Source of the DNA: a virus
DNA length: 24,876 nt
Reading direction: 5' to 3' (one strand)
Virus record (IMG/VR): IMGVR_UViG_3300020438_000260
Location: 1-24,876 of that record
The position numbers and the translations under genes are program-made. Below, in pieces: positions 9,187 to 24,876 of this stretch. The stretch's first letter is position 1. Each line of letters opens with the position of its first letter. The notes under the pieces are model-generated. The model was not told the DNA's origin and did not search any database. It was given only the letters and a program-made list of their open reading frames with translations.

Positions 9187-9717
9187 TTATCTCAAGAACT
9201 CTCTCCAATCCAGGCCAAACTGGATTGAATCTATTTTGTGTACACCTATCAAATACAGCACATAACTTGCTACACTTGATCCACGTCCTACACCCCATAC
9301 AATGTTATTCTCACGCATAAAGTCTACTAGATAGATCATATATCGTAATAGGTTGTGCATATCACGTTGTTTGTACTGTTCCATTTCTTCCCATATACGA
9401 TCTTGTACATGTTGTTCGCAGGGTGTTTCTGCTTTGCCTAGTACATATTCATATACATTAATGTCTTTGTATTCATCAGGCATAAACCATTCACCTTGAC
9501 ATACACCGTCAAAAGTCTTTTTGTCTACATCTAATGGAATATACTTTTGTAGTTTGTTAAAGCCTTGTTCTTCCATAGCATCATTAAACTTGTCTACATC
9601 GTCGTCTGCATCGCACAATACCACATGGACCTTGTCTGCATGACCTGCATAGATCATATCAACTAAGTCTTTATTTGTAAATCGCGGGATACCGAGAGAG
9701 TCTGTTTTCATAAGCAT
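9187..9717 (-). CDS. DNA polymerase III alpha (DnaE)-like fragment, 176 aa
   Basis: Residues about 108-175 resemble bacterial DNA polymerase III alpha just before its catalytic centre: a helix (YMIYLVDFMRENNIVWGV), then GRGSSVASYVLYLIGVHKID (the GRGS phosphate-binding motif, residues 144-147), then IQFGLDWREFLR, equivalent to the DnaE LLFERFL segment. The catalytic aspartates of the family (PDFDxDF) should follow immediately, but the protein stops there with TAA. Residues 1-107 are less clear. It therefore cannot be a polymerase alone. It may bind nucleotide or DNA, complement another subunit, or be a relic that keeps an open frame. No good ribosome binding site is seen before the two candidate ATGs (9717 and 9711). 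Confidence 0.75.
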   Translation of the reverse strand: MLMKTDSLGIPRFTNKDLVDMIYAGHADKVHVVLCDADDDVDKFNDAMEEQGFNKLQKYIPLDVDKKTFDGVCQGEWFMPDEYKDINVYEYVLGKAETPCEQHVQDRIWEEMEQYKQRDMHNLLRYMIYLVDFMRENNIVWGVGRGSSVASYVLYLIGVHKIDSIQFGLDWREFLR

Positions 9718-9726
9718 ACATGTATT

Positions 9727-9972
9727 TTAACTGATATTAATCAAATTGTCAAGTGAATTATCGTCATCTTGACTATTAATTTTTGGTTTGGCTCTACGGC
9801 CTTCCATCTCTGCTTTATACATATCAAGGATGGCTGTGATTTGTTCTTTTACTTGTGGATTCTGAGTCATCCAGAATTTTTTATTTAATGTAAGAATTTT
9901 GTCTTCTATTTCGTTGTCAGACAATAAGTCAAAACTTTGTACTAATGGATTAAAGGACGGTATCGAACTCAC
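9727..9972 (-). CDS. Uncharacterised 81-aa protein (GTG start)
   Basis: This 81-residue protein begins at a GTG at 9972, overlapping the end of the 195-aa gene by 23 bases, with GGAG about ten bases upstream. The next in-frame Met is residue 35, so the GTG start is preferred. It reads as a helical protein: SDNEIEDKILTLNKKFWM, then VKEQITAILDMYKAEMEGRR, followed by a polar Asp/Asn-rich tail. It lies between a fibre-type gene and the DnaE-like fragment. No family is recognised. Confidence 0.65.
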   Translation of the reverse strand: MSSIPSFNPLVQSFDLLSDNEIEDKILTLNKKFWMTQNPQVKEQITAILDMYKAEMEGRRAKPKINSQDDDNSLDNLINIS

Positions 9973-10537
9973 CTAAATATTCTCCGTAGACTGTTTGCCC
10001 GCCGTCGATAGTCCAAAATCTGTAGATGTATGGATGTATATTATCGTCGATTGTTGCTGGATGTGCAAAGCCTGTTGCTACTTTAATACTACCACTGTTT
10101 TCTGTATCAAAAGTTACTGTGTCTGCTTGACTGCGTCCACGTAATTCAATTAACACTTCTGCGTACTTACCACTTGTTGGCCAATCAGCAAGTTGTAATG
10201 TAATGCCTGTACTGTTAATTGTGTAAGAATGATATGTTGCTATTTCGTAACTAACTGGTCTAACACCTGCTGAACTTAGCACACCACCGCTATAAAACTT
10301 TTGTGAACCTTGTGTAATTACTACATTGTTAATAGTATTACCTTGCATGTTAGTAATTGCATCGTTATTCTTAACTGTGTTTGTATCTAATGCTGTTAAG
10401 TCTGCATGTGCATTAGTTAATTCGTCTTTGACTTTAGTAAAATTATCTCTAAAACCTTGCGAATCGTTATCTTGTCCTGCTCGAGGATAATCTGCATCAA
10501 TTGATGCAATATTCGAACTACTTGTATTAATGGCCAT
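9950..10537 (-). CDS. Virion/tail protein with fibre-type N-terminal module, 195 aa
   Basis: The first ~45 residues contain GQDNDSQGFRDNFTKVKDEL, a variant of the module GDGDPLRTAFDKVNDNFTELY found at the start of the 322-aa and 183-aa fibre genes. A short helical linker (DLTALDTNTVKNNDAITNMQ) leads to a beta-rich C-terminal domain (about residues 70-195) with many Thr, Ser, Gly and aromatic residues, such as YHSYTINSTGITLQLADWP. This fits a small trimeric tail or fibre component. An AGGAG site precedes the ATG and a GATAAATAT late-type box lies 19-26 bases upstream, so it can be transcribed separately late in infection. The exact position in the virion is unknown. Confidence 0.75.
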   Translation of the reverse strand: MAINTSSSNIASIDADYPRAGQDNDSQGFRDNFTKVKDELTNAHADLTALDTNTVKNNDAITNMQGNTINNVVITQGSQKFYSGGVLSSAGVRPVSYEIATYHSYTINSTGITLQLADWPTSGKYAEVLIELRGRSQADTVTFDTENSGSIKVATGFAHPATIDDNIHPYIYRFWTIDGGQTVYGEYLGEFDTVL

Positions 10538-13030: not shown

Positions 13031-13582
13031 TTAAAGTGTCCCCATATCACTGCTGTATAACCCAGAAGATGTTATAGTACCATAATCAACATCAAACGCA
13101 AGTTGCATGTACTCTGCATGACTTGTAATATTTGGAACAATATCGCCAAATTCTAATTGAGTACTAAAAACTTCACTACCTTGACTTGATGTGTCTGTAA
13201 TAGTTAATGTATTACCAACTAAATTAGTTGTAATACCTGCGCCACCTATAATACGTAATGTTTCACCATCGTCTACATTCATACTACCACCGTCAGTAAC
13301 TACTAACATGCCCTGTAGATCTGTGCTAATTTGTATGTCGTTCCCTGCAACTGCGGCAACAGTCATTCCTGTACCTGCTGTAAGATTTTTAAATGTTAAT
13401 TGATCGCCAACTTTGCCTGCAAATACAGCAACGCCTGTTCCTATACCAGCACCTGTTGTTGCTTCTGGTTGACGTAAATCTAGTTCATCAAAGTTTTCGT
13501 TTACTTTACGAAACGCTTCTCTTAGATCATCACCTGTGCCATCGTTAGCAATATTACCAATGTTTATATTTTGTATTGTCAT
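13031..13582 (-). CDS. Fibre-type structural protein, 183 aa
   Basis: The N-terminus NINIGNIANDGTGDDLREAF followed by RKVNENFDELD is the same module that opens the 322-aa fibre protein. The middle has Gly/Val/Thr-rich short strands (TGVAVFAGKVGDQLTFKNLT, MNVDDGETLRIIGGAG, LVGNTLTITD), typical of trimeric beta-helical fibre segments. A short C-terminal domain follows (SHAEYMQLAFDVDYGTI). It is probably a short tail fibre or fibre-base component. An AAGGA ribosome binding site and an ATAAATAC box with downstream AGTATAAG precede the ATG, so it can begin a late transcript that continues into the 819-aa gene three bases away. Confidence 0.77.
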   Translation of the reverse strand: MTIQNINIGNIANDGTGDDLREAFRKVNENFDELDLRQPEATTGAGIGTGVAVFAGKVGDQLTFKNLTAGTGMTVAAVAGNDIQISTDLQGMLVVTDGGSMNVDDGETLRIIGGAGITTNLVGNTLTITDTSSQGSEVFSTQLEFGDIVPNITSHAEYMQLAFDVDYGTITSSGLYSSDMGTL

Positions 13583-14664: not shown

Positions 14665-17600
14665 TTAATCTGTTAAATTATCTTCAGTAACATTAATAGT
14701 AATAGTTGCACTATTGTTAAGAATTGTAAATGTCCCAGTTAAACTTACTCCGCCAATATCTGCACTTGATACACCAGTAATAGTGTATGCTACATTGGCA
14801 CCATTTGCTACATTTGTTGTGTCTAGAGTAATTGTGAAACTTCCACCTTCATCTACTGTTGACTGACTTGAGGATAATGAATATGTTGGTAAAGATATTT
14901 CTGGTTCTACTTGTAGACTTGTATCTAGTACCATTTTATATTCTACAAATCCTGATACTGATGTGCTTGTAGTACCGTTTACTAATCCGCCTGCTGTTGC
15001 TAACGTATCATCTACTGTTCCGCCTGTAGTATGAACTGAAATTGGAGAATTTGAATCTATACTAACACTGCCATGTATTTCATATGTCCAATCCTCAACA
15101 GTTAATGTACCCGTACCATCTGCTTGATTTATTGGAACACTAGCAATTACTCCGCCAACTCTACCTAAACTTGTTTGTGTACTAGATATTCCGTAACCAC
15201 TTACCCATAATCTATTATTTGGATTTAATGTATTATCTAAACTACATTTATAAAGTCCTACGTTTAAATTAGAACTAGCATTTGTATGTAAATTTCTAAA
15301 CTTAGCATTACCAAGGTCTTCACTGAATGATATAACCATACCGCGTTTGTTAGTATTAGTACTATCTAAGTTTTGTTCACCAACTGCAAAAATTTTATTA
15401 TTTCTTGTATCAAACTCAACATCTCTTAATTTTGGTTTTGTTACTCTATAGTCTTGTGTAATACTTTGTTCACCGATGTCATTTAATACCCAATCAGTTG
15501 TAATGTCACCAGTAAGTGCGTTTAGTTTAAGAATGTGTGATTGTTCATAACCAGAATCTGGAGTATCTACATAACCAAGACCAACTATTGGATTGTCGTT
15601 TTGATCAATTGTAATACCTGCTGGTTCAAACCCTGTACCTGTTGCGGCCACTACATAAAAGAACTTAGCATATTGTAATGTTAAAGAACTATTAAATTTA
15701 CGAACAAATACTGTTTTTTCAGTACCATCACTTTTTAATTCAGATCCTGTAACATATATGTTACCTGTACTGTCTACAGCAACATCGTGTGCAACACTTA
15801 ATTTATCACTCGGAGATACTTTTCTAACAGTCAATACGTCACCGTTTGTTATATCTACTTTCATCATCCACATGCCACTATTCAAGTTTTGCAAATAGTT
15901 TGCACCTACTACAACAATATTACCATCACTTGTAAATGCCATTTCCTTAATACCTAAAGCATTACCGTCACTGTCCTGATAACTGCGTTGCCATAACACT
16001 GTTCCTGATGCATCTAATTTTGTAATATAAGCATCACTAGGATAATCAACACTTGGTACATTAGTTTCCCAGTTCCATGATCCACTGTACCCTGTATAAA
16101 TGTTTTCACTGCTGTCAACAATCGCACTTGTTAAGATATAGTTTTGTGTAAATGTACGTCTCCAAATTGGAGATCCCCTGTCAGTGTACTTAATTAATGC
16201 ACAAGTTTTATTGTTGCCACTATCAAGTTGTTCAATAACAACTGAAGAAGCACTACCTGCATGTGCAACAAATTGGAACGTTGTATTATCTGAACGTGAA
16301 GTAGTAGGTCCGTAATGTGTAGTTGCCCAATGCTTATCTGCAATATAAATTTCACCATTCATATCAGTGTGTATACTACATTGATAATGCTTACGTCCAC
16401 CTACTGTAGGAGTATAACTTACTGTTGCATTAGTTGTACCTTGATTTGCAACTGCATTTGTTTGATTTGCTGTTCCACTACCTTGTACATCTTTAATATA
16501 AAACGGATGTCCGCTTGCATTAATTGTCCAAGAAATAGTATCATTTCTATCAAATACCAACGGAGGATTTAATCCACTAATTGTTCCATTTCTATCACTT
16601 CCTGAATTCCAAACATATCCACTTGCGCCACTATTTGTAACTTGTCCTGTTAATGTTTCTTGAGTGCCATCACTTGTGTCGTTAATTGTTACATCAATAC
16701 TTTGAGCATTATCAGTCATGTACGGTAGATAAAAGTTTTCATTAACTTGTGTAGTTTTTGTTAGGTCTTCAATTAGTTTAAGATTAAATGTTTCTGTGCC
16801 ATCAAATGTATTATCTGCTGTAACTGTAAAAGTTTTACTATTTGCAACCTGTGTAAGTGTACCTCTAATATTTCCGTAGGTTGTAACTAATCCAGCCATG
16901 TCAATATCTGCTGTTCCTATGCCTGTAACTTCATAAGGGAATAACACTTGCGGAACTGTTGTACTAAGATTATTAGTTACTGCTACTGTAAATGTACTGC
17001 CTTCGTTAGCATTAGTTTTATTAGACGAAAGTGTTAATTCAGGCGCTTCAAATTTATCTCTACTGCCTGGATATCTAATCCATATTCCACCGTCTTGTCC
17101 TGACTCTGCTCTAGTTGTACTACCAGAAGTTGCAAGACCCATTACAAGCACTCCGCCTGCACCTGCGCCAACTTCATAACTTGCTGTTGCAGGAGTTACA
17201 GTATCAACATTATTTCCTGCCTCACCAGCAACACCTGTGGTTACATTTCCTGCACCGCTTATTGTTAATGTTGGAACTGTTGTGGACGCAAATCCTCCAC
17301 GTAGACCTGTAAGTTCTTTTGTAAGTGTTGTACCGCCACCTCTTGCTCCGTAAGTAATACCAGTACCACTTTGCCAGTTAGCAACATAACCATGTCCGCC
17401 ACCTGTGCCTCCAGTTAATGCTGGAAAAACTGTATCATTTCCTTCAGCATGTAAAATTACTTCTGCTAATTTTGTTGTGTTTAAGTCTGTAGCACTTGTT
17501 GCAACACCGCCTCTAAATTCAATTATAGTAACTGGTTCATCTGCTGTGTAACTTCCACTTCTTATAAATGTTCCACTGCCGTAAGTTGTTGTTGTTTCAA

Positions 17601-20600
17601 TTGCACTTGCACCATTTTCAACTCCGCCGAATGTATATTGTGCATTAGATCCTGACAACACAATGGTTGCTTGAGATCCAAAATCTTTACCTAAACTTTT
17701 ATAAACATACTTAGGTGTAGCAGTACCATTACGTATTAGTACATAATATGCATCATAGTCAACTCCGGCATTTGTCCAAGTTCCTGATTGTGCTAATACT
17801 GTTTTAATTTTTTCTCCTAGTATATACGCATACTCGTCATCATAATCATTAGAGCCTCCACTTATAACATCTAGTGTAACTCTTATACCACCTGAGTAAG
17901 TTATATTATCACTACGTACATTTCCTGTAGTAGTGCTAGTCCAGTTGTATGGTGATGTTTGGGCGTTACTAGGATCTAGTACAACGTTATATGGAGTTCC
18001 GTTACCGCCGACCGAGCCAGCACCAGCACCGCCGCCACCGCCTCCAACAATCGCTGAACCTAGTTGAAATCTCATTGAGTCACCACCTGCGCCACCTGCT
18101 TTACTGATTGTAAATGCACCAGTTGTTGTTCCACCTGCGCCGCCTAGTTTTCTTTGGTAAGGACTTATACTGTTAATTGAAACTGCTGTACTTGTTTGTC
18201 CGCCTCCTGCTACATAAGTAGTTCCGGCGTATGTAATTGTAGTATCGCCACCGTTGTTGTTACCTGTTCCTTTTGCACCAACATTATAAGTAATAGATTG
18301 TCCTGGAGTTACTGAAAGGTTATTAATAATACCAACTGCACCTGCTCCACCGCCACCAGTTACTTGTCCAGCACCAAGCGCGGCTATTGTACCAGCACCA
18401 GCACCACCGCCAACTGCTAGAATACTCACGCTAGTAACATTTGCTGGAATTAAAAATGATCCAGATCCTGCTGTAGTTGCAATTTCATCACCGGCTACTA
18501 GTGTTGTACTTGTATCAATTATTGTTACTGTTGTGCTTACGTTGTCAACAGATGTAAGTGACATAGTAAGAGTTTCACTGCCTTCTGTTGTAAAATCTTC
18601 TGCCACTGTAAAGTTTATTCTTGTAACACTACCTACAACAAAATTTCCTGCAATTGATCCTGTGCTGAGATCAGTAGCACTAATTCCTGTTATTGCATAT
18701 GGAAGTTGTACTCCTGGTACTCCGTTTGATACAACTAGATCAATATAAAAATCATCACCTTCGTTTACTTCACCTGTACTTGCAACAAGATTGTATGTAA
18801 TAGGTGAATTACTTGTATCATTAATTTGTACATCAATGTCTTGTCCAGCCGCCGCAAAATTAAATGTTTCTGTACCTTCAAGTAATCCGTCTGCTGTAAC
18901 AACGTATGTACGTGTAGTATCTGAACCTACAGTAAGAGTACCTGTTAGATCTGCATCACTAATATCTGCACTAGATACACCACTAATAGTATAAGGTATA
19001 CTTGTACCTGTTAAAACATTTGATGCAGTAAGTGTAATTGTAAATGTTTCGCCTTCTCCAAGACTATCTCTTGAAGTTGTAAGAGCGTATTGAGCATCAG
19101 GTTTACTTGTGTCTACTAAAGTGACAGTAACAAATTTATTCTCAATATCAACAAGTGCTAATCTGAATGTTTCATTACCGTCATCAAACACATTATCTTC
19201 TGTTGCAGTAAAGGTTAGTACTTGATTAGTTCCTATAATGAATGATCCAGATAAACTTGCATCTGCAATGTCTGCACTTTCGACTCCTGTAATTAAATAA
19301 GGAACAATAGTTCCGTTAACAAGACCAGTTGTAGTTAATGTAACTGTAAAACTTCCACCTTCATCTACACTTGAAGCACTTGCTGTTAGTGCATAAGTTG
19401 CTTCTTGAGCACCAGCATCAGCAACAATAGTTTCATCGCCTGCAATAGTTAATACGTTTGCCTCGTTATATGGTTGGTGTGCATATGCATTTGTGCCGCC
19501 CATTAAACTTCTGTAGTTTGTGTAATCTGTTCCAGTATTACCATTTTCATCTAACTGTGTTTTAGCACTAGATGTTATCCATGCTTTTGTTTGTGCAGTA
19601 GTTGAACTAGGTTGTATTTCTCCATAGGTTGCAATTAGTCCTGCAATTTGTGGAGCCGCCATAGATGTTCCGCTTATGTTTGTTATTCTAAATGATGTGT
19701 CATTGTATTGTGCATCTGTGAATCTATTTGTTGTACTTGTTGCACTAAAAATATTTGTTCCCGGTGCATATACATCGACACCTGGACCTTTTTCAGAACT
19801 TTGTGCTACTTGTTCATTACCGTCTGCATCTAATGCACTGTCAATATTACCTACCATAAGTGCATTTGTACTATAAGGTGATGATCCTCTATGATAGTAT
19901 TTTGTTTGTCCAAAACTTGTTGTATAATAATTGTTATAATCTGGATCAGTTGATGTTGCAATTTTATGATAGTTGTTGCCTGCGGCAATAACAACATGTA
20001 CTCCTGCTTCAATTAATTCTTCTACATCGGCATCAACTGATGCAATCCTAACACCATGTCTATAACCTGTGCCATCAAATGCGCCTGTCATACCGTATGC
20101 GGTATTTTTAGAATTTCCAGTCCAAGATGCACCTCTATAGTTACCACCATTAATGTATAGATATCTACTAAAGTATCCCCAACTCATGTTTATTACTGTA
20201 GGACGTTTTTGTCCTGTTAATACATCTGGAGTTTTTGCTTTGTGCCATTCTTTAACAACATCAAAAATATCACTTATTGGCATTCCATTATTTGGATCTG
20301 AAGATCCTTCTAAGCCTGCAATCTTTATAGAATATATTCTTGAATTTTTAGCCCAGCCGTATGTTTTACCTGCGGCAATACCTGCACAGTGAGTACCATG
20401 ACCATCATAGTCTGTATAAAATCCTGCGGGTAATGTTCCACTTACTACTGACTGTGCTTGGTACCAATCAATTTCTTGTACTCGACTAGTATTAAAAGAA
20501 TCTTGGAATTCAGGATGGTCTGATTGTATACCGCTATCTTGTACAATAAAGTCAACACCTGTACCTGTAAGTGTATGTGTGTATCCTCCAACAACTACTC

Positions 20601-20961
20601 CACTTGAGTTATAAGGATTTGATAACGCACTCATTCTACGTAAACCCCAGTTAATATTGTCTCCGCTGGATGCTGTTGACTTATTAAAATTTCCTACTTG
20701 TGTTGCAAATCTTTCAATACCAATATCGTCACGCAAGTCTGGTCTTAGTTCAACTGCTTCTACTCTACTATCATTTTGTAATTCAACTGCTTCTTCGTCA
20801 GTTAGTAAATAATGTGTATTTCTTTTTGATCCTGGTCTTTCGTTAGCAACTGTAACTGCTTTAGTTGGAACATAAGGTAACATATTTTGTGCTACCATGT
20901 CTTGTCTAAATGCTACGGGATCTACATCTTTCTTCAGGGTAACAATGTATTCTTTTTCCAT
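14665..20961 (-). CDS. Giant mosaic tail protein: subtilisin protease, Calx-beta repeats, Gly-rich, cupredoxin-like and propeller-like domains (2098 aa)
   Basis: Residues 1-75 resemble a subtilisin propeptide inhibitor (I9). Residues about 130-450 are a peptidase S8 domain with complete catalytic residues: D142 (QDSG), H188 (GHGTHCAG), oxyanion N329 (AAGN) and S433 (SGTSMAAP). Three Calx-beta repeats follow (about 523-618, 625-717, 723-818). A Gly-rich domain (830-1000 and 1183-1300) is interrupted by a ~180-residue insert, and a fourth Calx-beta lies at 1308-1430. A cupredoxin-like domain (1445-1541) has H1485, C1528, H1531 and M1534. A propeller-like region with VDSTGNIYVTG-type blades covers about 1545-1900. 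A fifth Calx-beta from 2025 is cut by the stop at 2098. AAGGAT precedes the ATG. It is probably a virion tail protein that binds and possibly digests host surface protein. Confidence 0.85.
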   Translation of the reverse strand: MEKEYIVTLKKDVDPVAFRQDMVAQNMLPYVPTKAVTVANERPGSKRNTHYLLTDEEAVELQNDSRVEAVELRPDLRDDIGIERFATQVGNFNKSTASSGDNINWGLRRMSALSNPYNSSGVVVGGYTHTLTGTGVDFIVQDSGIQSDHPEFQDSFNTSRVQEIDWYQAQSVVSGTLPAGFYTDYDGHGTHCAGIAAGKTYGWAKNSRIYSIKIAGLEGSSDPNNGMPISDIFDVVKEWHKAKTPDVLTGQKRPTVINMSWGYFSRYLYINGGNYRGASWTGNSKNTAYGMTGAFDGTGYRHGVRIASVDADVEELIEAGVHVVIAAGNNYHKIATSTDPDYNNYYTTSFGQTKYYHRGSSPYSTNALMVGNIDSALDADGNEQVAQSSEKGPGVDVYAPGTNIFSATSTTNRFTDAQYNDTSFRITNISGTSMAAPQIAGLIATYGEIQPSSTTAQTKAWITSSAKTQLDENGNTGTDYTNYRSLMGGTNAYAHQPYNEANVLTIAGDETIVADAGAQEATYALTASASSVDEGGSFTVTLTTTGLVNGTIVPYLITGVESADIADASLSGSFIIGTNQVLTFTATEDNVFDDGNETFRLALVDIENKFVTVTLVDTSKPDAQYALTTSRDSLGEGETFTITLTASNVLTGTSIPYTISGVSSADISDADLTGTLTVGSDTTRTYVVTADGLLEGTETFNFAAAGQDIDVQINDTSNSPITYNLVASTGEVNEGDDFYIDLVVSNGVPGVQLPYAITGISATDLSTGSIAGNFVVGSVTRINFTVAEDFTTEGSETLTMSLTSVDNVSTTVTIIDTSTTLVAGDEIATTAGSGSFLIPANVTSVSILAVGGGAGAGTIAALGAGQVTGGGGAGAVGIINNLSVTPGQSITYNVGAKGTGNNNGGDTTITYAGTTYVAGGGQTSTAVSINSISPYQRKLGGAGGTTTGAFTISKAGGAGGDSMRFQLGSAIVGGGGGGAGAGSVGGNGTPYNVVLDPSNAQTSPYNWTSTTTGNVRSDNITYSGGIRVTLDVISGGSNDYDDEYAYILGEKIKTVLAQSGTWTNAGVDYDAYYVLIRNGTATPKYVYKSLGKDFGSQATIVLSGSNAQYTFGGVENGASAIETTTTYGSGTFIRSGSYTADEPVTIIEFRGGVATSATDLNTTKLAEVILHAEGNDTVFPALTGGTGGGHGYVANWQSGTGITYGARGGGTTLTKELTGLRGGFASTTVPTLTISGAGNVTTGVAGEAGNNVDTVTPATASYEVGAGAGGVLVMGLATSGSTTRAESGQDGGIWIRYPGSRDKFEAPELTLSSNKTNANEGSTFTVAVTNNLSTTVPQVLFPYEVTGIGTADIDMAGLVTTYGNIRGTLTQVANSKTFTVTADNTFDGTETFNLKLIEDLTKTTQVNENFYLPYMTDNAQSIDVTINDTSDGTQETLTGQVTNSGASGYVWNSGSDRNGTISGLNPPLVFDRNDTISWTINASGHPFYIKDVQGSGTANQTNAVANQGTTNATVSYTPTVGGRKHYQCSIHTDMNGEIYIADKHWATTHYGPTTSRSDNTTFQFVAHAGSASSVVIEQLDSGNNKTCALIKYTDRGSPIWRRTFTQNYILTSAIVDSSENIYTGYSGSWNWETNVPSVDYPSDAYITKLDASGTVLWQRSYQDSDGNALGIKEMAFTSDGNIVVVGANYLQNLNSGMWMMKVDITNGDVLTVRKVSPSDKLSVAHDVAVDSTGNIYVTGSELKSDGTEKTVFVRKFNSSLTLQYAKFFYVVAATGTGFEPAGITIDQNDNPIVGLGYVDTPDSGYEQSHILKLNALTGDITTDWVLNDIGEQSITQDYRVTKPKLRDVEFDTRNNKIFAVGEQNLDSTNTNKRGMVISFSEDLGNAKFRNLHTNASSNLNVGLYKCSLDNTLNPNNRLWVSGYGISSTQTSLGRVGGVIASVPINQADGTGTLTVEDWTYEIHGSVSIDSNSPISVHTTGGTVDDTLATAGGLVNGTTSTSVSGFVEYKMVLDTSLQVEPEISLPTYSLSSSQSTVDEGGSFTITLDTTNVANGANVAYTITGVSSADIGGVSLTGTFTILNNSATITINVTEDNLTD
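18508..19395 (-). repeat. Tandem Calx-beta repeat array in the giant tail protein
   Basis: Three successive ~95-residue units share SxxSVDEGxxFTVTL, then YxITGVSSADIxxxxLxGxF, then FTxTEDxxxxGxETFxLxL, and end in a DTS motif. Two further copies lie at about residues 1308-1430 and 2025-2098 of the same protein, the last one incomplete. Calx-beta domains often bind calcium in extracellular adhesins. Confidence 0.8.
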
Positions 20962-20972
20962 TAACTAAATCC

Positions 20973-21941
20973 TTATAGTGCCGCTATGCGTGTTTTGAAG
21001 TCTGCAAAGTCTGTACTATTTGCTACTTCGGTCTTCATTGTTGCCAATGTAAATGTTTCTGTAACTGGTGCTGTCCAAGCATAACCTGTTGCTGATTTTG
21101 TTAGTACATCACTTAGGTTACCACCTGGTAATAAATCACCAATGTTTCCTGGAATTAAATTACTCAAGTCAGTTAGGTTTGCTACATCACCTGGAATTAA
21201 ATTTGTTGTATCTGTTAAGTCGGATAAATCAGTTGCAATTAAATTACCATTGTCAGTTAATCCACCTACATCAGTAATTGTCATATTTTTCCAACCACCG
21301 TTTATGTATGCTTCAACATGTCCTGTGGTTGTATTAGCAACTAAGAATCCTTCTGTAGTAAATGCGTTACGTGCCGCTGTTGTATAACTTGGCGGTACTA
21401 TTTTTGAAAATGCGTTTGCGTTTAATGTTCCGTTGATATTTACAAATGAACTGTTGTGGCCCATTTCAACATTACCACTGAGTGTGTCATATCCAATGTG
21501 TATGTCTTGTCCTTGTGTGCGTAATGCAATATCAGTATTCGAATAAATTACAACTCCATTTTGACTTACTTGGACATAATCTTCTGCCGCACTTTCTTGC
21601 AGTGTTACAATTCCTTGTGCTTCAATAGTAATATTTGCATTTACACCTGTGTTAGTAGTTGTAATATCAATGTTATTATCAACAACGTCCCAAGTTGTAC
21701 TTGCTAAAGGTCCTACAACTTTGCTGTTATTACCGTCTACAAGTAATGTACTGTCTGTTGCGTGTACACTACCAATTGTATCTACAATAAGTGTGCCACC
21801 TCCTGTTTGTGCTGACTTAACTTGTTTTAAATCAAGATATAATTCTGTAAAGTTGTCATTTACTTTATCAAATGCTGTGCGTAATGGATCTCCATCACCT
21901 TTGTTAGCACTTGTACCTAGGTTAACTATTTGTTTTGCCAT
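20973..21941 (-). CDS. Tail-fibre protein with GDGDPLRTAF module, 322 aa
   Basis: The first ~40 residues (NLGTSANKGDGDPLRTAFDK, then VNDNFTELYLDL) are the fibre-type N-terminal module. Residues 45-180 are short beta segments rich in Thr, Asn, Val and Gly, such as IEAQGIVTLQES and VNINGTLNANAF, typical of a trimeric shaft. Residues about 184-220 hold YTTAARNAF...YINGGWKNM, a motif I associate with marine phage fibre proteins. Residues 227-275 are short tandem repeats of the LTDxxNLIPGD type, and a helical C-terminus closes the protein. It is joined by TAATG to the upstream gene. The role is probably tail fibre or baseplate-attached adhesin; the receptor is unknown. Confidence 0.8.
   Translation of the reverse strand: MAKQIVNLGTSANKGDGDPLRTAFDKVNDNFTELYLDLKQVKSAQTGGGTLIVDTIGSVHATDSTLLVDGNNSKVVGPLASTTWDVVDNNIDITTTNTGVNANITIEAQGIVTLQESAAEDYVQVSQNGVVIYSNTDIALRTQGQDIHIGYDTLSGNVEMGHNSSFVNINGTLNANAFSKIVPPSYTTAARNAFTTEGFLVANTTTGHVEAYINGGWKNMTITDVGGLTDNGNLIATDLSDLTDTTNLIPGDVANLTDLSNLIPGNIGDLLPGGNLSDVLTKSATGYAWTAPVTETFTLATMKTEVANSTDFADFKTRIAAL
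21117..21263 (-). repeat. Short tandem repeat LTDxxNLIPGD in the 322-aa fibre protein
   Basis: Residues 227-275 read as consecutive units of about 14-16 residues: GLTDNGNLIATDLSD, LTDTTNLIPGDVAN, LTDLSNLIPGNIGD, then LLPGGNLSD. The DNA repeats are degenerate, so the repeat is kept at the protein level. Confidence 0.7.
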
Positions 21942-24876
21942 TACACTTTCCCTACTACTATTTCAATTGTTCCTCTTTCAGTAGTGTCTTTGGCTTGCAA
22001 CGCTTTACCAATTACTGTTCCTACTGTTGGATTGTTGTCAACTATTGCATACCCAGCAATAGCACTTGACACTAATATATCTCCAGGTTGTGCTTTGCCA
22101 ATAATTTTGCAAGGAACTCTACCTGTCAATGCAACTGGAGTTACAAACTCACCTGTCAAATCACTATTCATTAAGTACGCTGGCTTCTCACTTACAACAC
22201 CAATGACTTTTGTATCACCTTTGGTTGCTGTTGTTGTAATTTCTTTTGCACCACCAAGTACAATAACTGTTCCTGGTTCATACTCTGTATCTGCTGAATA
22301 GTTTTCTGCCAAGTCAGCATAACGTGCTTGTGTTGCCGTACCGTCAAACACTGTAGCATAAACAGTATTGTACGCTAATGATGCTGTACCAATATTATAA
22401 ACATTGTTTGTGTCAGGAACAACACCTGTTGCACTAAACTTAAATGGTGCTTTGGTTGCCGCTGAATCTTTTACAAGAATACTTACTTCGCCTGCATTAG
22501 TTTTACCAGTTCCTGCACCTAGTGCAATACCTGTTGAACCTGTACCTTTTTCATTAGCCGCTTCAATAAACTGTGTATACATCCAATCCGAACTAATTCG
22601 TGCTTGGTTGTTGTATGTTGAGTTTTGTTGGAGTGTACTTTGTGTGTTAGCACCTGAGTCTCCAACATCAATACTTGCCGCAAATTCTGCTGTAATAGCA
22701 CTTGTACCTGCCGCTTCAAATATTTGTGCGCCACCAGGTGTAAGCATTTCAATTGTTGTTGCCGCACCTGACTTAGGTTGTAAAATTACGTTAGTATCTG
22801 CCGCGCCTATGATCAAACCAGTTGTTCTAATCATACCATCGGACTTGGTCATTACAATACTATCATTACCACCGGTTGTAGTAATTGTTTGTGCAGTTGG
22901 ACTTGCTGTTGCACCACTAACGTTTGTTAATGCTGTATTATTTGCAATTTCTTCAATGTCGTCTAGATCAACACTACCAGTTTTAAGTGTTACAAATCCA
23001 TCTGTTACTGTAAAGTCTCCGCTATCAAATACTGCAAGACCTAAGTCTTCTTGAATAACTGCTCCACTACCACCACTACCACTTGTAGCATCTGCAATAG
23101 TACTTGCCGCTTGCATAGCAAGTTTGCTTTGTGCAATCGCCGCCGCAGGATTAACATCAGCATTTAAAATACTGTTGTCTTTAATATTATATGTAACTCT
23201 ATATTCCGAAGGAAATCTTGTACCGAACCATTCAATTTGACTGCTGGTATCATATGTAGCGTTTGCAGTTTCATGATGCGGTCCACTTACTATTGTACCT
23301 ATTGCGTCTGTAATAAATCCTGTATTTCCAGCAACTGTAAATGCTAAAATTGCTCCGTTTCCAGAAACTGATGTAATTGTAATTGTACAATCGTTAGCCG
23401 GAGTTGCTCCTTGAGCACTTCCTGTGCCTAATTGATCTCCTGGTATTGTAAATGTTTCATTAATTGCATATCCAGTACCTGAATTAAATGTATAAGCAGT
23501 GTATGTAGTTCCTTTACCTATATTAAAACCAGCGTCAACACCTGATGCTCCTGAGTATATTACACCACCTGGATTTTTGCACGATACTACTGTAGATGCA
23601 TCTGCTTGTGTTAATGTTCCTGCTACTTCTCTATAAACAACTCTTTGTACTGCACCAAGAACACCATCTGTTCTTGCTTCGATATCTTCAATTTCGCCAA
23701 TGTTTGAGCCTTGTATAATTGTTCCGCCTGTTACTAAAGGACCGTCTGCAATAGTAGCACTGTCAAAGAATACAATTCTTTTACCTGTTCTGTGCATTAA
23801 TTGATCTTTGTAGTAGTTTGCATCTGATTCAGCACTACCAGGATTTTTCTCAAGACTTACATCTCGCATACCATCTAAAGTATTATACTGTTCTACAACT
23901 GTATCGACATATGCTTTGTTGACTGCATCTGAATCTTGTGATGGTGCTTGGACATTAATAATTCTATTACTACCCATGTTCAAGTTACCTGTCATTGCCG
24001 CATGACCATCTCTTGGAACTGTACCGCCACCAATAACATTGTTCACTGGTAGACCATTATGGTCCCAACCTAAACGTCTGTTTACATATCCACGTACTGC
24101 GTTTTGTGTTGGAACAATATCTGATCCATTCTGTGTCATACCATCGTCAGTACTAAATTCACTAACAACAACACCACGTTTAAAACCAATACCGTCCAAG
24201 TTACTTAACGCAATACTACCTGCGAATGTAACTGTACCAGTACCTTGGTCAACTGTAAAGAATCTACCTACACGGAAGAAACCGTCTTGGTCTGTACTTA
24301 CGTAGAACACTCTACCTTTTGAACGCTCTTGTACTTCGTATGATTGATTAGGTTGTCTTGGTGCACCTAGTAGTACACTTGGATAGTTACTAGTGTTGTA
24401 TGAGCCTGTACCAATGTCTAAGAAGTCATGTCCTGTTGCTCTTGTAAGTGATATGTTAATTGTAATATCACCTGGAGCGCCTTGTGGTAGACCAATTCTA
24501 ATTGTATTTGCTTGTCCGCCATTTAGTACTACCGGAAGATGAAGACCTGTTGCATTGTTCGTTAAGTTATGATCAACTTTACCGCTTGGGTTAGTTGCGT
24601 CAGCAACATCTTCAATTTTAATAACTGCATAACCAACAAAGTCTAAGTAATCAACAACTTTGTGTAACTTACCTTCCCATGTAAAGATCATGTTACCTCT
24701 ACGTAGTCTTGCAATGTCTGAAACTTCAGTAAGTTCTGCAACCGCAATACCTACGTCACCTTTGGTTGCACCTAATGTTGTACCTCCAAAGCCTACTGCT
24801 GGTGTATCACTTGTATGATTAGTATCTACAATAACTCTAACGTAATCGTAAGTAGCATCAAAGCCCATTAAGATTT
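21941..24876 (-). CDS. Large tail-fibre/structural protein, 5'-truncated by window edge
   Basis: At least 975 residues are visible from the first Met at 24868, but the frame continues to the window edge without a stop and no ribosome binding site precedes that Met, so the true start is probably outside. Residues about 295-320 contain the phage-fibre motif MGSNRIINVQAPSQDSDAVN followed by KAYVD. The middle is Thr/Ser/Gly/Ala-rich beta structure with short repeats. The last ~130 residues form a distinct domain, from ADLAENYSADTEYEPGTVIV through VIGVVSEKPAYLMN to GKAQPGDILVSS, which resembles C-terminal chaperone or autoprocessing domains of some fibres. That resemblance is weak. It ends with TAATG into the 322-aa gene. 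Likely a long tail-fibre subunit. Confidence 0.8.
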   Translation of the reverse strand, partial: ILMGFDATYDYVRVIVDTNHTSDTPAVGFGGTTLGATKGDVGIAVAELTEVSDIARLRRGNMIFTWEGKLHKVVDYLDFVGYAVIKIEDVADATNPSGKVDHNLTNNATGLHLPVVLNGGQANTIRIGLPQGAPGDITINISLTRATGHDFLDIGTGSYNTSNYPSVLLGAPRQPNQSYEVQERSKGRVFYVSTDQDGFFRVGRFFTVDQGTGTVTFAGSIALSNLDGIGFKRGVVVSEFSTDDGMTQNGSDIVPTQNAVRGYVNRRLGWDHNGLPVNNVIGGGTVPRDGHAAMTGNLNMGSNRIINVQAPSQDSDAVNKAYVDTVVEQYNTLDGMRDVSLEKNPGSAESDANYYKDQLMHRTGKRIVFFDSATIADGPLVTGGTIIQGSNIGEIEDIEARTDGVLGAVQRVVYREVAGTLTQADASTVVSCKNPGGVIYSGASGVDAGFNIGKGTTYTAYTFNSGTGYAINETFTIPGDQLGTGSAQGATPANDCTITITSVSGNGAILAFTVAGNTGFITDAIGTIVSGPHHETANATYDTSSQIEWFGTRFPSEYRVTYNIKDNSILNADVNPAAAIAQSKLAMQAASTIADATSGSGGSGAVIQEDLGLAVFDSGDFTVTDGFVTLKTGSVDLDDIEEIANNTALTNVSGATASPTAQTITTTGGNDSIVMTKSDGMIRTTGLIIGAADTNVILQPKSGAATTIEMLTPGGAQIFEAAGTSAITAEFAASIDVGDSGANTQSTLQQNSTYNNQARISSDWMYTQFIEAANEKGTGSTGIALGAGTGKTNAGEVSILVKDSAATKAPFKFSATGVVPDTNNVYNIGTASLAYNTVYATVFDGTATQARYADLAENYSADTEYEPGTVIVLGGAKEITTTATKGDTKVIGVVSEKPAYLMNSDLTGEFVTPVALTGRVPCKIIGKAQPGDILVSSAIAGYAIVDNNPTVGTVIGKALQAKDTTERGTIEIVVGKV

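Follow-up and report, generated by a model that had tools for sequence, protein, structure and literature searches.

The window analysed here is the whole stretch of 24,876 nucleotides of a viral record (IMGVR_UViG_3300020438_000260) from a marine T4-like phage, and the features discussed below are collected in Table 1. Three of its proteins, denoted A, B and C, were described in a first-pass annotation as carrying variants of one short N-terminal helical module; the segments pointed out in A and B span residues 3-36 of A (21834-21935) and 4-34 of B (13481-13573). In related contigs, the gene order is D - A - B - large gene - C, with protein sizes of about 1900-3050 aa for D, 42-865 aa for A (some cut by contig ends), mostly 180-240 aa for B and mostly 185-200 aa for C. 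Subtilase or protease genes are found next to module-carrying or C-type genes in this window (14665-20961, minus strand) and at two further loci, L231 and L255.

Table 1. Features of the window, with positions in nucleotides from its first letter
Feature	Position	Strand	Properties	Family match (E-value)
Protein A	20973-21941	-	322 aa; module followed by a body that is highly variable among relatives	PHROG 677 (1.1e-7)
Module of A, residues 1-35	21837-21941	-	blastp match to B	
C-terminal tag of A, last 26 residues	20976-21053	-	shared by many relatives whose bodies otherwise differ	
Protein B	13031-13582	-	183 aa; gp9/gp10-type N-terminal module followed by a short fibre-like body	PF07880 (8.3e-6)
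Module of B, residues 1-35	13478-13582	-	contains the segment of the first-pass annotation	
Protein C	9950-10537	-	195 aa; N-terminal helix and XD1-like sandwich (both predicted)	
Segment of C, residues 24-40	10418-10468	-	third variant of the first-pass annotation; same register by hhalign	
XD1-like beta-sandwich of C, residues 81-190	9968-10297	-	VIA-align on the predicted model	
C-terminal 975 residues of protein D	21941-24868	-	N-terminus and module outside the window	
Subtilase-domain protein, 2098 aa	14665-20961	-	directly after A; one gene separates it from B	PF00082
176-aa protein	9187-9717	-	fragment-like small gene	PF07733

Proteins A and B begin with the same module. Whole-protein blastp aligns residues 1-49 of A with residues 1-46 of B at 55% identity (E=1.1e-10), the significant similarity being confined to an N-terminal stretch of about 35 residues, and gives no significant match between the remainders behind the module (best E=0.46). 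A profile of the module matched 254 frames at E<=1e-3 among 12,717 real frames and none at this threshold among reversed or shuffled copies of these frames. On this evidence, the proposal of one module in three proteins stands for A and B; for C, discussed below, membership by sequence was not recovered by blastp, Pfam, hhalign or control comparisons. In the window, A, B and C do differ in their remaining parts, as proposed. In relatives, many of the remainders are connected by repeat motifs; 233 remainders fall into 5 single-linkage groups, and clustering of the bodies was accordingly set aside as uninformative on whether they are unrelated. The structural model of B (AF2) is poor (pLDDT 62.6), with a helix at residues 19-35, and fold searches with this model returned no match.

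At the level of sequence, the module of A and B is a known one, namely the N-terminal segment of the T4 baseplate proteins gp9 and gp10 (PF07880, PHROG 677/958). Protein B scores 26.4 bits against PF07880 (T4_gp9_10_N), above the curated cutoff of 25, and each of the 22 sequences in the B alignment, among them B of the window, matches the family at E<=1. Protein A reaches 15.1 bits, below the cutoff; given its matches to PHROG 677 and to B, we claim for A the shared module and not Pfam membership. From the N-terminus onwards, A and B are each matched by PHROG 677 (gp9-type connector) and by PHROG 958 (baseplate wedge subunit), and residues 4-37 of B align to residues 3-36 of gp10 (whole-sequence E=3.3e-7). 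When a profile built from 24 modules was compared with the PDB, the five distinct sequences found at E<=10 were all gp10 or gp9 chains (E from 3e-12 to 0.02), namely gp10 of 5hx2 and 2fl8, which we take to be T4 entries, the gp10 and gp9 chains of 9f4a, from a KP1-type Klebsiella phage according to the structure title, and T4 gp9. In whole-genome scans with the module profile, T4 and KVP40 each gave two genes, identified as gp9 and gp10 from their position and length (the T4 frames have 288 and 602 aa). Of the 9 named phages scanned whole, 8 have one matching gene or more, the exception being Agrobacterium phage Atu_ph07, with no match in its whole genome. The first 38 residues of B match 1773 of 50,697 phage-collection records at E<=1, and among the 60 matches listed the informative names are mostly those of baseplate wedge proteins. 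Taken together, the Pfam and PHROG, PDB, whole-genome and phage-collection matches identify the module as one of a known kind. A full-text literature search for the Pfam name of PF07880 returned no paper.

The expectation that the module always lies at the protein start is borne out. In all 254 significant frames (E<=1e-3), which represent 179 distinct carriers, the module lies no further than 25 residues from the frame start, the largest offset, counted from the preceding stop and not from a known start codon, being 21; two weaker matches (E=0.86 and 3.5) are left out of this count. The same applies to the 109 of 109 frames (62 distinct carriers) matched by a profile of the C-type N-terminus, which gave no match at E<=1e-3 to reversed and shuffled frames. 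The 12,717 stop-to-stop frames of at least 50 residues come from 182 sequences (the window, two phage records and fetched loci, many of them overlapping); since the queries used to fetch the loci bear the module at their N-terminus, carriers of this kind are favoured, but every frame of the loci was scanned. A second set of 49 loci, some overlapping, contains 51 frames at E<=1e-3, one of them cut by the locus edge and all 50 uncut ones with the module within 25 residues of the start. Across 14 whole records, 35 strong matches (E<=4.2e-18) and a single weak one (E=0.003) were found. Occurrence at random places, named in the first-pass annotation as the observation that would speak against the module, was looked for as well, and only two weak internal resemblances came up, both in the second set: one in the interior of a protein of Pseudomonas phage ZQG1 (E=0.13) and one in a bacterial ORF of L284 (E=0.014). 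The latter, a resemblance to half of the module inside a 1198-aa ORF, is probably due to chance. This ORF belongs to the three loci (L282, L283, L284) obtained by scanning bacterial genomes with one module protein; the 486-aa ORF of L283 has the module at its start, and that of L282 is cut at its start.

The window contains part of an additional carrier. The ORF of 975 aa at the window edge shares 99.9% identity with residues 1511-2485 of protein D of L106, a protein of 2485 aa that starts with the module; the D frame of the window is open to the edge. By this alignment, the ORF is the end of a protein D of about 2485 aa, a fourth carrier with its predicted module beyond the window. Among 12 IMG/VR records searched whole, which may be fragments, three module genes are present in eight, five in one, two in one and one in two; a C-type gene is found in 11 of the 12. 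In eight loci (L106, L166, L170, L171, L173, L226, L227, L228), the gene before D encodes a protein of about 107-130 aa; close to the end of this protein is a CGCG motif, which we take to be an iron-sulfur carrier signature.

Protein A has, besides the module, a conserved C-terminal tag. Of 41 matches to a profile of this tag, 39 are located at the C-terminus of module-bearing frames, and the other two, also C-terminal, are on frames whose 5' end is cut off at the edge of the locus. Five distinct A proteins of 66-67 aa, encoded on nine loci (L140, L166, L167, L168, L170, L171, L172, L173, L184), consist of the N-terminal module and the C-terminal tag only. Downstream of these minimal A proteins, the six loci that were read encode a separate protein with MANR.PL at its start or a few residues from it.

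For protein C, whole-protein blastp gives no significant match, the best E-values being 3.0 (with A) and 0.56 (with B). In ungapped comparisons of the module over 17 columns, the highest identity of C is 7 with A, a value reached by 52 of 5000 shuffles, and 4 with B, reached by 3957 of 5000. Alignment of the module to C with hhalign recovers the register of the first-pass annotation (P=0.12 and 0.038), and with the profile of the whole B protein the best alignment falls elsewhere (P=0.31). By hhalign score, the C family comes 6th among 31 N-terminal families of the same loci, a ranking led by the module itself. None of the 22 members of the C alignment matches PF07880 at E<=10, and the gp9 and gp10 chains are absent from the PDB matches of the C profile. 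Membership of C by sequence in the gp9/gp10 N-terminal family is thus not established by Pfam, hhalign, the control families and the shuffles.

The predicted structure of C (pLDDT 83) has a 27-residue helix near the N-terminus and a beta-sandwich that VIA-align matches to XD1 of CBA120 TSP4 (residues 78-179, Z 8.6), to residues 49-157 of chain 9f4b_FA, gp10 of a KP1-type phage (Z 8.5), and to residues 66-168 of T4 gp9 (Z 6.5, where values under 8 may reflect a common arrangement only). TSP4 XD1 is itself described, in a passage of PMC8825819, as closest to T4 gp9. In gp9 and gp10, the module likewise precedes an XD1-like domain; among the models of the window, the XD1-like sandwich is seen in that of C, the B model being of the low quality noted above. 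The fold is common among phage proteins, with 295 predicted viral structures of BFVD matching the C model at E<=1e-3, and is therefore a weak marker. Judging from the model, C may work like the module carriers, through its own N-terminal helix and XD1-like sandwich, and we do not file it as a member of the family. In two loci, L140 and L173, look-alikes of the 176-aa protein of Table 1, in which 80 residues match the bacterial DNA polymerase III alpha domain PF07733 (2.3e-11), are encoded near C.

Alternatively, C could truly belong to the gp9/gp10 N-terminal family and have diverged strongly, a possibility to which we give a little less than an even chance. It draws on the recovered register, on the strictly N-terminal position of the C-type segment, on the predicted sandwich behind the helix, as in gp9 and gp10, and on the 18-column aligned stretch of C, the longest among the 24 non-self families listed. 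Furthermore, the C-type N-terminus also heads a different, 876-aa body in Atu_ph07, where the carrier adjoins a gene annotated as protease. These points have to be weighed against the failure of all C members to match PF07880, the sixth rank by hhalign, the displaced whole-profile alignment and the wide occurrence of the XD1-like fold.

The module is present in several phages of other kinds. In Pseudomonas phage ZQG1 (Mesyanzhinovviridae), it stands at the start of a GDSL-hydrolase protein. It also begins a protein of Nonlabens phage P12024L and, in the crAss-like phage phi14:2, gp092, whose annotation as a structural protein comes from mass spectrometry. A search for the gp6 family, the sole baseplate gene searched for in ZQG1 and phi14:2, found none in either phage, so gp7 need not be the partner of the module. 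Pelagimyophages are reported, in a passage of PMC7029224, to lack T4 gp7. In the two relatives in which gp6 was found (G001 and G002), the module genes are more than 100 kb away from it.

We also considered the large ORF directly after gp6, called gp7 by position only; BLAST with this ORF of Mosig matched only itself in 7 records. Its length, with the number of module genes in brackets, is 1032 aa in T4 (2), 1165 in KVP40 (2), 874 in Mosig (1), about 896 in Melnitz-3 (1), 903 in phiM9 (1), 867 in RHph_I1_9 (1), 6376 in Syn33 (1), 6198 in S-ShM2 (1), at least 6511 in P-RSM4, where it is cut at the region end (1), 1892 in metaG-MbCM1 (1), 3007 in S-SSM7 (3), 4449 in Atu_ph07 (0), 4906 in G001 (3) and 4937 in G002 (3). 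These lengths do not follow the carrier counts, and the notion that carriers increase in number with the seats on a longer gp7 was rejected. The size of the ORF in the two relatives (4906-4937 aa; L247:4051-18771 and L248:4071-18884) and in three cyanophages (about 6200-6500 aa; L275, L276 and L281, the last 6511 aa and cut at the region end) stands out against that in T4. A carrier directly follows this ORF in S-SSM7, Syn33, Mosig and Melnitz-3; this is not the case in S-ShM2, where another ORF comes next, or in phiM9, RHph_I1_9, G001 and G002, and in T4 and KVP40 another gene separates the two. Since the adjacency is missing in several phages, it is only suggestive and was not taken as proof of a partnership.

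The module copies differ systematically between gene positions. In 35 distinct contig sets of D and A, 17 of them with B, compared without the first three residues, the identity between copies at the same position across contigs is 0.858 for D, 0.814 for B and 0.867 for A, the A value being raised by the fetching of contigs by similarity to A, a selection that did not act directly on D and B. Between different positions, the identity is 0.517-0.601 within one contig and 0.515-0.603 between contigs, and by this equality the copies are not homogenised within a phage. Gene position and residue share mutual information that exceeds the shuffled mean by 0.11 bit per column in five presumed core columns, which were assigned from hydrophobic spacing and not from a structure, compared to 0.53 in the arm (columns 6-19) and 0.47 in the other helix columns. 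Among 57 distinct modules, no variation is seen at ten residues (G9, N13, G15, G17, R21, F24, K26, N28, N30 and F31); in the wider set of 24 modules, only M1, G9, R21, K26, N28 and N30 are invariant. The position of F24 is occupied by Gly in the alignments of T4 gp9 and gp10, so T4 shares the presumed core only in part.

As far as these alignments go, each of the positions D, A and B keeps its own subtype, with the differences mostly outside the presumed helix core, a pattern that fits a common scaffold with position-specific surfaces and argues against one shared site. Given that each position has its own subtype, D, A and B most likely go to different places or partners. Plain orthology of the positions, with no functional meaning, could give the same pattern. 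In the titles and abstract openings of the literature on gp9/gp10, tail fibres, cyanophages and pelagiphages, we recognised no description of module subtypes by position.

T4 gp9 and gp10 are trimeric baseplate proteins. The identification of the module with their N-terminal segment is the reason why a docking or trimerisation tag, as suggested in the first-pass annotation, fits A and B; this part of the suggestion is retained by analogy, and its other parts, a single attachment site and the inclusion of C by sequence, are not. According to passages of a T4 review, the N-terminal domain of gp9 binds a domain of gp7, and gp10 shares 23% identity with gp9 over its N-terminal 200 residues (PMC3004832); it is from the facts on gp9 and gp10 given there that we infer trimerisation and docking for A, B and D. 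The module of these three proteins would be an anchor segment in which an extended arm of about 18 residues is followed by a short helix. Three copies would pack through this helix and start a parallel trimer, as suggested by the gp9 and gp10 trimers and by the spacing L20-F24-V27-F31-L34, and the arm, together with the polar face of the helix, would seat the trimer on the baseplate periphery in the manner of the gp9-gp7 binding. The body behind the module would be exchangeable, and each of the D, A and B positions, with its own arm and helix-surface subtype on a common core, would most likely lead to a different place or partner. Protein C, not shown to be a member, would probably play a similar role with an N-terminal helix and XD1-like sandwich of its own. 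We assign a probability of about 0.75 to this explanation as a whole, that is, a gp9/gp10-type anchor module with exchangeable bodies, position-specific subtypes and separate destinations.

A further extension would treat the N-termini of D, A, B and perhaps C as orthogonal addresses on one anchor scaffold with freely exchangeable bodies, each address bringing a trimeric tail protein to a seat of its own and the 66-67-aa A proteins being pure adaptors or plugs for the A seat; we put it forward tentatively and consider it rather more likely to fail than to hold.

The module might also be a trimer nucleator only, starting parallel fibre trimers while other parts attach the proteins. The conserved hydrophobic spacing, which is a/d-like in the group to which the window belongs, and the presence of the module in ZQG1, P12024L and phi14:2, with no obvious common docking partner, are compatible with such a role. 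The invariance of the non-core residues G9, N13, G15, G17, R21, K26, N28 and N30, the concentration of subtype differences outside the presumed core, the Gly in place of F24 in the T4 proteins and the reported binding of gp7 by the N-terminal domain of gp9 speak against it, and we regard it as unlikely. Still less probable is the proposal of the first-pass annotation that all carriers share one tail site, where they would compete or alternate: the invariant residues are indeed common to all subtypes, but each position has its own subtype across phages, the copies are not homogenised inside a phage, and several carriers are kept together, three in most of the possibly fragmentary IMG/VR records. 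Chance or compositional resemblance of short helices, which could apply to C at most, is already refuted for A and B by their pairwise alignment and by the complete lack of decoy matches, and the likelihood that we leave to it is negligible.

A known family was correctly sighted in the window, with the third protein, C, unproven. Through the module, a number of marine phage tail genes that lack annotation are explained together. The position-specific subtypes and the two-tag minimal A protein are worth testing: if the subtypes are true addresses, sequence alone would tell the tail seat of a fibre protein, and such addresses would help to read the host-recognition genes of uncultured phages.

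Compared to T4, the similarity lies in the sequence of the 35-residue module, in its N-terminal position and in the nature of the carriers as tail or baseplate proteins. The differences are that the part following the module in A, B and D was not recognised as a gp9 or gp10 body, that most long relatives have three module genes compared to two in T4, and that in the clade of the window each gene position has its own module subtype. Among cyanophages, module genes are named 'baseplate wedge tail fiber connector' (gp9) in deposited genomes such as those of Synechococcus phage S-SSM7 and Prochlorococcus phage Syn33, which have three and one module genes, respectively. In S-SSM7, a PF00082 gene is located between two connector-named genes, resembling the subtilase gene between A and B in the window, although only the 853-aa one of these two matches the module profile, and a C-type match is absent from both cyanophages. 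The third comparison is with branched fibres. In TSP4 of CBA120, the anchor is described in PMC8825819 as a triple beta-helix domain, unlike the module of A and B, whereas the XD1 domain of this protein matches the sandwich in the predicted model of C. The N-terminal part of TSP4 and the branched fibres of RaK2 are built with gp10-like N-terminal domains, and PMC8825819 and PMC10253068 describe, in the passages concerned, standard N-terminal parts that organise several receptor-binding proteins.
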